A DNA stretch of 64,000 nucleotides from Candidatus Poribacteria bacterium (GTDB lineage Bacteria; Poribacteria; WGA-4E; WGA-3G). The stretch is from assembly GCA_022821725.1 (NCBI GenBank), contig JAJEDB010000079.1, forward strand, positions 1 through 64,000. Direction: 5' to 3'. This document shows, one piece after another, positions 8,355 to 14,635 of this stretch. A program made the position numbers and the translations under genes. Below the pieces are notes generated by a model, which had not been told where the DNA came from, did no database searches, and saw only the letters and a list, made by a program, of their open reading frames with translations. The first letter of the stretch is position 1. Every line of letters begins with the position of its first letter.

Positions 8355-9167
8355 TTACATAGTATCAATCAAGGCACGCAGTTGCCGCACGCCCTTCAAC
8401 ATATCTTCCGGTTGTCCCCAATGTTCAATGCTTGCTGCGCCAGTGAATCCGTCAGCGACGAGCGTCTCCAACACCTGTTTATAGCGCAATCCTGTGTCGC
8501 CAATCGGATCAAGGTTTTTCTCACTGTTCGGTTTCACATGGAGATGCCGCACCAATCCTTTAATATGGGCGTACCCATCCGGCAAGGGATTCTCTCCGCA
8601 GTGTAGTCCATTGTTGACATCCCAGCACGAGGTGAGGGCGGGACTATTTCCGAGGGCATTGATGACGGCACGCGTCTCTTCACAAGTTCCGGCGAGACAC
8701 GCACTTTCGTTTTCAAAACAGAGTGTAACGTCGGCGCTCTCTGCAACCGGAACAACGAGCGAAAGTTTCTCGACGATACGTTCCATATAGTCGTTAATAT
8801 CCGGGCGCGGCGCGCCTTTGGTCCCACGATTGGGATTCCAAAATGTAAATCCTCGAATGACTTGGGTATCAAATGCGTGTGCCAACGTCACCATCCGATC
8901 AAAGTGTTGTCGATGCTGTTCATACTCCTGTGAATCGTCAATCGAGCATTTACCGAAGGGCGACCCGACACTCGTAACACGGACATTGTAATTGCTGAGT
9001 ACATCCTGAACACGTTTGACATCGTCCTCGTCAATCTCGGTCACATGTTTTCCCCAAACACCGCCGCGGATTTCGACGGTATTTGCCCCGGCTTCAACAC
9101 CGAGTTTAATGGCTTCCTCAAAATCGGTTTTAGAAACCTCATCAGCAAAATAGCAAACATCAATCAT
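8355..9167 (-). CDS. Sugar phosphate isomerase/epimerase-like TIM barrel
   Basis: The 270-residue product belongs to the AP-endonuclease-2-like xylose isomerase TIM-barrel family. Visible elements are ANTVEIRG, NVRVTSVGSPFGKC, LCFENESACLAGT (metal-binding Glu), CWDVNNGLHCGENP (Asp-x-x-N), HLHVKPNS (His) and AASIEHWGQPEDML (final Glu). Such enzymes isomerise or dehydrate keto-sugars with a divalent metal. Its Shine-Dalgarno AGGAGG overlaps the TAG stop of the redoxin gene upstream, so the two are translationally coupled. Confidence 0.8.
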   Translation of the reverse strand: MIDVCYFADEVSKTDFEEAIKLGVEAGANTVEIRGGVWGKHVTEIDEDDVKRVQDVLSNYNVRVTSVGSPFGKCSIDDSQEYEQHRQHFDRMVTLAHAFDTQVIRGFTFWNPNRGTKGAPRPDINDYMERIVEKLSLVVPVAESADVTLCFENESACLAGTCEETRAVINALGNSPALTSCWDVNNGLHCGENPLPDGYAHIKGLVRHLHVKPNSEKNLDPIGDTGLRYKQVLETLVADGFTGAASIEHWGQPEDMLKGVRQLRALIDTM

Positions 9168-9182
9168 TTCAAAAAACGCCTC

Positions 9183-9803
9183 CTAAAATTTCTTTAGTTG
9201 TGCAAGTATGGGTTCAGTCCCGATGCGTTTACCACTCTTAGCATCAAGGTATTTCCACGCGATGTTCCCATCTTGATTAACAATATAGACCGCTGGACGT
9301 GCTACCTCGATTTCACTCGGGTCAACGACATTATAAGCCTCTATTGTCTTCGTTTTTTCATCCGAAAGCAATAGATAGGTGATTTGGAGCGTCTGCTGCG
9401 TTGAATTAACAGTCGCTATCGGGTCGGCACTGACAGCAACGAGTTCGGCACCTTCGGCTTGAATGTCTTCATACCCCTTCTGCAACTCACCGAGTTGCGT
9501 TCGACAGTCGCCTCATGTGCCGGTGCGGTAGAAAACAATAACCAGTTTTTGCCCGCGATATTCCGAAAGACTGTGGAATTCCCCATCCCCATCTGGAAGT
9601 GAGAATTCGGGGGCAAGCGCTCCGAGGTCCAGCCCTTCGCCCATAGGGAGTTTTTCAGCGGCATCCTCCGGTGCTGTTGTAATGTGGGTCGTTCGTTCTG
9701 CATCGCCACAAGCAAAGGATAAAAAAACAGTGACGGCACACAGCGCGGAGAAAAGCAGTAAATCGGACAAGTAGACGACAATATTCGGTTTCTTTGATGC
9801 CAT
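9183..9803 (-). CDS. Predicted selenocysteine-containing redoxin (AhpC/TSA-like) lipoprotein, Sec97
   Basis: Read straight through one in-frame TGA (9513-9515), this is a 206-residue redoxin. It starts with a lipoprotein-type signal (Cys32 after LSFA). GALAPEFSLPDGDG opens the AhpC/TSA fold, and KLVIVFYRTGT-U-GDCRTQL carries the active site: Sec97 and Cys100 form a UxxC in the place of the family's peroxidatic CxxC. The fold continues with LVAVSADP and IAWKYLD to a normal TAG. Without readthrough both halves would be useless. A 7-bp hairpin with a GGT loop lies 21 nt after the TGA. Probable role: thiol- or selenol-dependent peroxide reduction or disulfide exchange outside the cytoplasm. ATG 9801-9803 lies a few bases after the PhyH stop. 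Confidence 0.85.
9482..9515 (-). promoter_or_regulatory. Candidate bacterial SECIS element of the redoxin gene
   Basis: On the coding (minus) strand, TGA at 9515-9513 is followed after 21 nt by a GGT triloop (9491-9489) closed by a perfect 7-bp stem GCAACTC / GAGTTGC. A short stem whose loop begins with G, about 20 nt 3' of the UGA, is the known layout of bacterial SECIS elements bound by SelB. Confidence 0.75.
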
Positions 9804-12602: not shown

Positions 12603-13343
12603 ATGCTAACGCAAGAAATGGTAGCCGATGCCCCTTCGGATCCAGGCGTTTATTTTTTCCGTGGGACTTCGGGGAAAATCCTCTACATCGGCAAAGCGAA
12701 ATGTCTACGGAAGCGTGTCCGTTCCTATCTCCATAAGGTCAAAAGACGCCCAAGCAAAATCAAACGGCTTATCCGGTGGACGACAGACGTTCGGTATCAG
12801 GTGTGTCGGTCGGAACAGGAAGCACTTTTCTTAGAATCGCGCCTCATCCGAGAATACCAACCTTCCTATAATACGGCTATGAAATTCGGACGTGCCTCTT
12901 GGTATATCCGGATAGATGTCGGAGAGGCTTTTCCGCGCCTTGAAAGAGTCTCCGAGACCCAGCCGGATGGTGCGCGATATTTTGGTCCGTTGTCGAGTCG
13001 GCGATGGACAGACGAAGCGATTGACGTTTTACAGCGGATCTTTCCGGTTCGGACATGCGAAGGTGAAATTACACCGATACCGGGATTTCGTGCCTGTTTT
13101 CAATACGATCTGAAACGGTGCGACGCCCCTTGTGCGGCACGCATTACGCGCGAGCACTACGGAGAAATGATTACAGATATCGTTGATTTGCTGGATGGGG
13201 AATATGAAAAAGTGCAAACACGTCTGATTGCCAAACGGGATAGCGCCTCGGAGACTCTCCACTTTGAGCGGGCTGCTGCATTTCAGAAGCAGTTGCAACG
13301 GATTCAGAAGGTCTTTACGTTTTTAGATGTCCACCGGAGGTAA
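12603..13343 (+). CDS. UvrC-like GIY-YIG nuclease lacking the C-terminal half
   Basis: The 246-residue product has the UvrC N-terminal GIY-YIG module (PSDPGVYFFRGTSGKILYIGKAKCLRKRVRSYL, catalytic Tyr and Arg visible, then EQEALFLESRLIREYQPSYN). The cysteine cluster region follows (CEGEITPIPGFRACFQYDLKRCDAPCAARI), then a UVR helix pair (DSASETLHFERAAAFQKQLQRI) that would bind UvrB. Full UvrC is about 600 residues and has an RNase H-like 5' nuclease and HhH domains; these are absent and no second half follows. It resembles the stand-alone Cho-type nucleases, which make only the 3' incision. It ends in a clean TAA, so it is probably a real short gene. Confidence 0.8.
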   Translation: MLTQEMVADAPSDPGVYFFRGTSGKILYIGKAKCLRKRVRSYLHKVKRRPSKIKRLIRWTTDVRYQVCRSEQEALFLESRLIREYQPSYNTAMKFGRASWYIRIDVGEAFPRLERVSETQPDGARYFGPLSSRRWTDEAIDVLQRIFPVRTCEGEITPIPGFRACFQYDLKRCDAPCAARITREHYGEMITDIVDLLDGEYEKVQTRLIAKRDSASETLHFERAAAFQKQLQRIQKVFTFLDVHRR

Positions 13344-13447: not shown

Positions 13448-13500
13448 TTGCCTAAAAAATTAATGTGTGTTAAAATAGTCAACAATTAACTCAAGGAGGT
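13448..13500 (+). promoter_or_regulatory. Promoter and ribosome-binding site of the HMA selenoprotein pair
   Basis: A sigma70-type promoter: TTGCCT (13448-13453), 17-bp spacer, TAAAAT (13471-13476). AAGGAGGT (13493-13500), a perfect Shine-Dalgarno, lies 7 bases before the ATG at 13508. The strong signals argue that the gene is expressed despite its internal TGA. Confidence 0.65.
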
Positions 13501-13507
13501 TAACCAC

Positions 13508-13894
13508 ATGTATATTGCAAGATTATCGCTTATTTGTCTTATGACTTTCGTGTTCATGGTAGGCTGTGGTATGCTGGCGAAGAAGGCAGAGATGTCTGAA
13601 CCCACCGCCGGTGCCACCGAAGAAGCCGCAATGGAAACCGACATGGAAGCGGATAGCGACATGATGGAAGCCGCCGTTGAAGAGATTACACTAAATGTCA
13701 CGGGTATGACATGAGGCGCGTGTACCAGCAAGGTGCAGGCTGCACTCAGTAAAGTTGCCGGTGTCTCTGAAGTGGTGAGTGTCTCTGACGCGGATAATAC
13801 GGCTGTTGTGAAGGTTGAGAAAGGTAAAGTTAAGACTGCCGATCTCACTACAGCAGTTCAAGGTGCCGGCTTCAGTGCCGAAGTCGCTCAATAA
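13508..13894 (+). CDS. Predicted selenoprotein: HMA-domain lipoprotein, Sec69
   Basis: Read through the in-frame TGA at 13712-13714, this encodes 128 residues. A lipoprotein signal comes first (lipobox FMVGC, Cys20), then a Met/Glu/Ala-rich linker (about 25-58). A complete heavy-metal-associated domain follows: EITLNVTGMT-U-GACTSKVQAALSKVAGVSEV, then VVKVEKGKVKTADLTTAV and GAGFSAEVAQ before TAA. The normal HMA metal site is GMTCxxC; here Sec69 replaces the first Cys and Cys72 is the second. Domain homology continues for 60 residues after the TGA, so this is not a stop. A paralogue with TGA at the same site follows. Likely role: binding or reducing a soft metal (Hg, Cu, Ag) in the periplasm; the metal is unknown. 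Confidence 0.88.
13712..13746 (+). promoter_or_regulatory. Candidate bacterial SECIS element of HMA gene 1
   Basis: TGA (13712-13714) is followed after 23 nt by loop GGC (13738-13740), closed by GGTGCA / TGCACT (13732-13737 and 13741-13746; five Watson-Crick pairs and one G-U). The core GTGCAGG(n)TGCAC is close to my recollection of the E. coli fdhF SECIS apex. Confidence 0.75.
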
Positions 13895-13911
13895 GGCTAA
13901 TAAATTCGGAG

Positions 13912-13934
13912 AAGGGTGGGGTTCCTCACCCTTT
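13912..13934 (+). terminator. Hairpin between the two HMA genes, possible partial terminator
   Basis: AAGGGTG / CACCCTT stem with an 8-9 base loop, followed by TCTCTAT rather than a clean U-run. It may attenuate or protect the transcript between the two genes and so set their ratio. Confidence 0.45.
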
Positions 13935-14061
13935 CTCTATATGAGCAGGTTGCAAACGATATTTCTGTTGCAGTCTGAATCGAATAAAGTTTCAACCATC
14001 AGCGTTGAAGTTGAAGAGGCGCGATCGAGAGATCGTCCCTACACATAAGGGGATTAAACTT

Positions 14062-14406
14062 ATGCGTCAGTTAAATGTGAGTATGCTATTTGTTTGCTTC
14101 GCAGCACTGCTGTTTATGGTTGCATGTGCGGACACCGCAAAGAAAGAGGCAGAAGAAGCCGCCCCCGCGCAAACGGCAGAGGTAACCGTTGAAGAAGTTA
14201 CACTGACTGTGACAGGTATGACGTGAGGCGCGTGTACCAGCAAAGTGCAGGATGCACTTACGAAAGTTACGGGTGTTTCTGAGGTCGTCAGTGTTTCTAT
14301 GGAAGAAAATAAGGCTGTGGTGAAAATTGAGAAGGACAAGGTCGAGAAAGACACGCTCGTGAAAGCGGTTACAGATGTAGGTTTCAGCGCGCAAGTCGCT
14401 AACTAA
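14062..14406 (+). CDS. Predicted selenoprotein: HMA-domain lipoprotein, Sec55
   Basis: Read through TGA at 14224-14226, this encodes 114 residues: a lipoprotein signal (lipobox FMVAC, Cys22), a short Glu/Ala-rich linker, and an HMA domain. The domain reads EVTLTVTGMT-U-GACTSKVQDALTKVTGVSEV, then KAVVKIEKDKVEKDTLVKAV and VGFSAQVAN, ending at TAA. It is a diverged tandem copy of the gene at 13508. Linker and C-terminal halves differ at many positions, but the TGA, GAC-TSKV and the hairpin are kept. Conservation of the TGA through divergence is strong evidence that it is decoded. ATG 14062-14064 is chosen for the signal peptide and the AAGGGGA upstream. Confidence 0.88.
14224..14259 (+). promoter_or_regulatory. 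Candidate bacterial SECIS element of HMA gene 2
   Basis: TGA (14224-14226) is followed after 23 nt by loop GGA (14250-14252), closed by a perfect 7-bp stem AAGTGCA / TGCACTT. Compared with gene 1, the outer pairs change G-U to A-U and A/C mismatch to A-U, so pairing is kept or improved while the sequence drifts. Confidence 0.75.
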
Positions 14407-14600: not shown

Positions 14601-14635
14601 AATGCGAGGTGTAAAAACCTCGCATTTTCTATTTT
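14601..14635 (+). terminator. Rho-independent terminator of the HMA operon
   Basis: A perfect 10-bp stem AATGCGAGGT / ACCTCGCATT with loop GTAAAA, followed by TTCTATTTT. It ends the plus-strand HMA transcript just before the convergent PhyH gene. Confidence 0.75.

Follow-up and report, generated by a model that had tools for sequence, protein, structure and literature searches.

It is almost certain that two neighbouring genes of a Candidatus Poribacteria bacterium code for small metal-binding proteins that are anchored to the membrane and have selenium instead of sulfur at one of their two metal ligands. The genes lie in a window of 64,000 nt (the whole stretch of DNA that we analysed, from contig JAJEDB010000079.1), and each contains one in-frame TGA. 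Support at the level of sequence comes from the selenocysteine (Sec) machinery of the genome, conservation of the TGA, a SECIS-type hairpin, the heavy-metal-associated (HMA) fold, the lipobox, purifying selection, and the spread of the unit through the phylum. For the proposal as a whole, that these are real selenoprotein genes whose products have a periplasmic role as soft-metal scavengers or chaperones, we estimate a probability of about 0.6.

Two lipoprotein genes with a TGA at the first metal ligand

The initial annotation had placed a TGA exactly at the first Cys of the GMTCxxC motif in each of two HMA lipoprotein genes, and both the coordinates and the translations agree with this (Table 1). 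The second ligand is a Cys encoded by TGT in both genes, so that the two soft ligands expected in CxxC spacing occur here as UxxC; paralogues have Cys at the Sec position. When read through the TGA, the two proteins are 57% identical in alignment and have the same layout: a lipobox, a charged linker, and an HMA domain at the C terminus. That this domain spans the TGA and runs on to a normal TAA in both genes, as had also been claimed, was borne out by profile matches across the TGA of 38.4 bits for gene 1 and 40.0 bits for gene 2 (PF00403; cut-off, 24.8 bits), with the matches also present in a six-frame search. Both proteins have a hydrophobic N terminus with a lipobox Cys, a residue that we found by eye in most orthologues. 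Since the lipobox is kept in both genes across the genus, both proteins should be exported, lipidated, and anchored on a membrane facing the periplasm.

A further claim, that the genes form an intact operon, stood only in part. The lipobox, the Shine-Dalgarno sequence, and a good terminator-like hairpin are present, whereas the claimed strong promoter comes down to a single sigma-70-like match at 9 of 12 positions, and promoter-like matches were not above chance (three found versus 1.8 expected). Moreover, the genes are separated by a gap of 167 nt with a weak hairpin at 13918-13932, and a single operon is therefore not shown.

Table 1. Positions of the gene pair, its predicted features, and a conserved neighbour in the window
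Feature	Position	Strand	Description or basis
Upstream neighbour	12603-13343	+	246 aa GIY-YIG and UVR protein, short UvrC-like; conserved
Promoter match upstream of gene 1	13448-13476	+	sigma-70-like, TTGCCT-17-TAAAAT, 9/12
Shine-Dalgarno of gene 1	13494-13499	+	AGGAGG; sequence
Gene 1, predicted lipoprotein with C-terminal Sec-HMA domain	13508-13894	+	128 aa, stop TAA
Lipobox Cys20 of gene 1	13565-13567	+	FMVG-C; sequence, orthologues keep Cys
HMA domain of gene 1	13688-13873	+	PF00403 profile match
TGA of gene 1, predicted Sec69 (U69)	13712-13714	+	first metal ligand of GMT-U-GA-C
Putative SECIS hairpin of gene 1	13733-13745	+	GUGCA-GGC-UGCAC; frozen synonymous sites, compensatory changes
Gene 2, predicted lipoprotein with C-terminal Sec-HMA domain	14062-14406	+	114 aa, stop TAA
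Lipobox Cys22 of gene 2	14125-14127	+	FMVA-C; sequence, orthologues keep Cys
HMA domain of gene 2	14200-14385	+	profile match; modelled beta-alpha-beta-beta-alpha-beta
TGA of gene 2, predicted Sec55 (U55)	14224-14226	+	first metal ligand of GMT-U-GA-C
Putative SECIS hairpin of gene 2	14245-14257	+	GUGCA-GGA-UGCAC; comparative
Terminator-like hairpin	14601-14626	+	T-rich tail; about 195 nt downstream of gene 2

Conservation and decoding of the TGA codons

Gene 2 was matched in 80 of the 85 genomes of the phylum, and nearly all of the listed matches contained exactly one TGA. Two adjacent matches were present in at least 50 genomes (counted from the listed coordinates), and a contig scan returned three independent Poribacteria records in which the pair recurs with both of its TGAs. 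Since the pair keeps its TGAs across the phylum, chance is excluded. The Sec-HMA unit recurs across most of the phylum, with up to four in one protein.

In homologues from other phyla and in paralogous domains, the Sec position is occupied by Cys, although the scan outside the phylum was run with Cys in the query and may have missed Sec-HMA relatives beyond Poribacteria. Our first motif scan within the phylum required Cys or Sec at a fixed spacing and could not show other residues. The remaining homology matches were then read at their loci without the motif filter, which gave UxxxC forms and compensatory changes in the stem described below. The TGA-less matches that we read had Cys at the site, with the sole exception of a loop deletion in one genome (G062), such that a column otherwise made up of TGA or Cys, as the initial annotation would predict, emerged from the homologous sites read.

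A short hairpin with the consensus GUGCA-GGN-UGCAC starts 18 nt past the UGA. We compared 92 distinct, aligned 60-nt Sec contexts, in which, numbered from the U of UGA, the pairs are G22-C34, U23-A33, G24-C32, C25-G31, and A26-U30. All 92 contexts have the four-pair stem, whereas across 300 synonymous recodings the number of contexts with it averaged 11.4 and never exceeded 20. At codons 7 to 10 after Sec, the residues V, Q, D, and A are always encoded by GTG, CAG, GAT, and GCA where they occur, while in sampled genes of the window GTG makes up 23% of Val codons and GCA 29% of Ala codons; synonymous sites flanking the hairpin codons vary. In the published bSECIS model, the small apical loop has a G in its first two positions and lies 16-37 nt from the UGA (PMC13188914). 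The loop of our hairpin lies 23 nt after the UGA, a position that fits this model in 92/92 contexts, and reads GGN, or GUC in 7 of the 92.

The A26-U30 pair is replaced by G-C in two contexts and by G-U in one, and it is lost in nine that have Glu in the protein. The stem was kept at all 11 of the further homology-found sites outside the 92, which we read by eye. At individual loci, G24-C32 is replaced by G24-U32 (L147) or, with both sides changed and Ala becoming Val in the protein, by A24-U32 (L148), and the stem of L159 has U25-G31. Two genomes, G025 (L157) and G026 (L158), have GMTUGISC, a UxxxC form with one extra residue, and in these the stem shifts by the extra codon. The Sec-HMA sequence at L159 (G012:C129:18763-18975) has TAG in place of CAG inside the hairpin, where the U-G pair keeps the stem, and the selA gene of the same genome has an internal TAA; these oddities are possibly pseudogenes or sequencing error.

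In a small control with ten Cys-type HMA domains from Poribacteria, seven lacked the stem and three had it. An Rfam scan of the gene-pair region gave no match. Minimum-free-energy folds of the sequence after the UGA had other, longer pairing, with z scores for fold energy of about -1.2 (60 nt) and -3.0 to -3.5 (47 nt). Because these folds disagree with the comparative hairpin, the case for a SECIS element is built on the sequence comparison, and fold energy is not relied on.

The initial annotation had tied its reading of the TGAs to the presence of selA, selB, selC, and selD, and we found all four in the source genome (4.97 Mb in 151 contigs, 91% complete). The matches to selA (597 bits) and selB (349 bits) pass their cut-offs, selD was matched with 360 bits, and the gene for tRNA-Sec (selC; 78 bits) adjoins selB. 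Across the phylum, selA was above cut-off in 72 of the 85 genomes. The selD gene of the source genome (L011) is itself a selenoprotein gene, with a TGA at its own Sec site (VKCAG-U-ASKL).

It could be argued that the TGAs are true stops, leaving decayed genes or short lipoproteins of 68 and 54 aa, and open reading frames called with translation table 11 do end at the TGA. However, this reading conflicts with the phylum-wide conservation of the TGA, with the constraint on the SECIS hairpin and its compensatory changes, with the complete Sec machinery of the genome, and with purifying selection downstream of the TGA, and we give it hardly any credence. We rejected the idea of pseudogenes on the median dN/dS 3' of the hairpin (gene 1, 0.195; gene 2, 0.107), which shows purifying selection; the HMA domain is so short that a tree of it is not well resolved. 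The machinery, the conserved TGA, and a SECIS-type hairpin under strong synonymous constraint all argue for decoding as Sec, and from this sequence evidence we have very little doubt that both TGAs would be read in that way.

Possible roles of the Sec-HMA unit

An AlphaFold2 model of the gene 2 protein, built from a 12-sequence alignment, adopts the beta-alpha-beta-beta-alpha-beta fold of HMA domains, and its metal loop precedes helix 1. The pLDDT is >90 over the HMA domain, and the N-terminal part is disordered. The best match of the model in the PDB was oxidised MerP (1osd; TM of 0.93 by target); metal domains of copper ATPases were also among the best, and there were matches to ATP7B and CopZ.

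We propose that SelB would bind the hairpin beginning 18 nt after the UGA and bring Sec-tRNA(Sec), and that the mature protein would be a lipid-anchored HMA domain of the MerP/CopZ fold, held by a flexible charged linker and exposing its Sec-x-x-Cys site to the periplasm. By general chemistry, a selenolate ligand is softer and more acidic than a thiolate, and it is re-reduced more easily. Compared with a dithiol, the selenolate-thiolate pair may hold soft metals more tightly, Cu(I) being the most likely and Hg(II) a possible one, and it could recover from oxidation. Together with the poly-domain relatives described below, the two copies would most likely constitute a periplasmic metal buffer or hand-off chaperone. 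The identity of the metal, the direction of its transfer, and the priority of metal binding over redox chemistry represent our best guess.

Genomic context bears on this proposal in both directions. Besides the pair, the source genome has two HMA matches, a 73 aa Cys-type protein and a copper-type P-type ATPase (L166:7654-9921; TIGR01511, 575 bits, cut-off 397), and the latter, which carries an HMA domain, counts in favour of the proposal. On the other hand, we found no metal operon or obvious partner beside the pair, which counts against a metal role, as does the fact that Sec in known selenoproteins serves in catalysis more often than in metal binding. The conserved neighbours, including a GIY-YIG/UVR protein whose gene directly precedes the pair in 33 loci, look like general synteny without an obvious functional link. 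A 423 aa protein without a Pfam match (L132:8445-9716, + strand) has homologues near Sec-HMA genes in seven genomes of the family (G029, G031, G037, G040, G041, G044, and G047).

The MerP match, combined with the extreme affinity of Sec for Hg known from general chemistry, raises the potential that the proteins are MerP equivalents that pass Hg(II) to a transporter in mercury resistance. Yet MerT is absent from every genome with the pair, the best MerA match in the source genome is under the cut-off, there is no mer operon, and the pair reaches only about 45 bits against the MerP model TIGR02052 (cut-off, 92.55). Mercury uptake is thus not supported, and we regard mercury resistance as quite improbable. 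Taken together, the lack of a metal operon, the absence of MerT, the sub-threshold MerA match, and the copper-type ATPase favour a scavenger or chaperone, with Cu(I) as the first candidate and Hg(II) as the second.

Some relatives encode secreted poly-HMA proteins. Each frame comprises four or five HMA domains, of which three or four have a TGA and the last is Cys-Cys. Five HMA domains are found at L124 (+ strand; Sec/Cys codons at 8508-9384), four of them with Sec, and at L133, three of them with Sec; L128, L129, and L131 have three Sec each. In other relatives the unit is C-terminal in a fusion with a PSCyt1 cytochrome and WD40 repeats (L161:6118-7713, + strand; also L137, L160, L162, and L163), with a PSCyt2/PSD1 gene near the fusion at L161. 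In frames of similar size at L164 and L165, the corresponding domain carries Cys. Outside the phylum, a Cys HMA homologue in Brocadiaceae lies among genes for thioredoxin reductase-like, thioredoxin, and DsbD-like proteins (L025:2583-7669), a hint of redox function.

The main alternative to a metal scavenger is that Sec-x-x-Cys forms a periplasmic redox couple on an HMA scaffold, acting in selenenylsulfide/thiol exchange or peroxide scavenging, with metal binding being secondary. Surveys list UxxC frequently among predicted redox selenoproteins, the best structural match is to an oxidised form of MerP, the cytochrome-WD40 fusion hints at electron transfer, and the Brocadiaceae neighbourhood points the same way. 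Against this, the GMT(U/C)xxC metal-loop signature and the HMA fold are retained, no redox partner adjoins the pair within the window, and G025 and G026 tolerate UxxxC, which is unusual for a redox pair. We consider a primarily redox role unlikely, though a serious contender.

With three to four Sec in each secreted poly-HMA protein, it is also conceivable that the multi-Sec proteins store or deliver selenium in the envelope, by a logic like that of animal selenoprotein P. However, every Sec is confined to the metal-ligand site within a folded HMA domain and none lies in a Sec-rich tail, while single-domain lipoproteins would hold little selenium, and selenium storage therefore seems a remote prospect. 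More generally, and tentatively, at somewhat less than even odds, we suggest that the Sec-HMA domain with its own in-frame SECIS may be a portable cassette, a selenium-based periplasmic module for metals or electrons that is deployed in tandem, in arrays, and fused to cytochrome and WD40 domains. If true, one domain would tie together selenium, soft metals, and envelope redox chemistry.

The deletion noted above belongs to a congener, G062 (loci L123 and L178). Exactly 30 nt, corresponding to TGMTUGACTS, are lost in frame from gene 2, so that both ligands are gone and the reading frame is intact, a finding that counts against the preferred metal role. In this genome gene 1 still has its TGA and both selB and selD are present, but the tRNA-Sec gene beside selB is truncated and no selA was found above cut-off. 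It is possible that Sec use is being lost in G062, which would make it a natural test, or that this one draft genome contains an assembly error.

Relation to known selenoproteins and HMA families

Selenoproteins are mostly seen as redox enzymes, and to our knowledge a metal-ligand role for Sec in proteins of the chaperone type has so far been a database prediction. Surveys already contain Sec proteins described as HMA-type, and list a UxxC cation ATPase and a MerP-like entry (PMC9312934, PMC13188914, PMC2398784), and two NCBIfam families, NF041115 and NF045683, make clear that Sec in HMA-type proteins is not new in principle. The earlier suggestion of novelty must be narrowed to this extent, although the tandem UxxC lipoproteins do differ from these families in motif and architecture. 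What is new is the phylum-wide occurrence of tandem UxxC lipoproteins, the secreted poly-HMA proteins with three to four Sec, and the cytochrome-WD40-Sec-HMA fusion; we found no mention of Poribacteria and selenoproteins together in the open-licence literature.

Standard annotation ends these proteins at the TGA and hence misses them. Read through, they provide a large comparative series in one clade, comprising tandem lipoproteins, Cys paralogues within the same protein, arrays with up to four Sec, a fusion, and a genome with an apparently damaged Sec system, so that the question of why Sec replaces Cys in a metal site becomes directly testable. The short, nearly invariant SECIS offers a clean model in an uncultured phylum.

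Among known systems, the CopZ chaperones (NF047957, NF033794, and NF033795) have the HMA chaperone fold in common with the pair, but these Cu(I) carriers have Cys-Cys sites and no lipobox, and the pair falls below their cut-offs (at best 58 versus 85 bits). MerP (TIGR02052; 1osd, 1afi) likewise has a periplasmic HMA fold and a GMTCxxC loop, with 41-42% identity in structural alignment, although it is a soluble Cys-Cys protein encoded with MerT in mer operons, whereas the pair consists of UxxC lipoproteins. The cation-transporting E1-E2 ATPase selenoprotein ABB15669.1 (PMC9312934, PMC13188914) resembles the pair in having UxxC in a heavy-metal transport protein, but it is a membrane ATPase and not a free lipoprotein. 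NF045683 (MerT_CopZ_Se), for which metal transport has been proposed, also has a CopZ-type HMA part in a selenoprotein; it is a MerT-type membrane fusion, while the pair has no MerT part and scores 46 bits against a cut-off of 375. NF041115 (UxxU_metal_bind) ranks first among NCBIfam models for gene 2 (61.1 bits) and second for gene 1 (47.5 bits), with both scores short of its cut-off of 95. Like the pair, this family carries Sec in the metal motif of a small HMA-type domain, but its motif is UxxU with two Sec, and our motif scan of the phylum returned no GMxUxxU site; the Poribacteria proteins have UxxC with one Sec and are tandem lipoproteins with a long linker.
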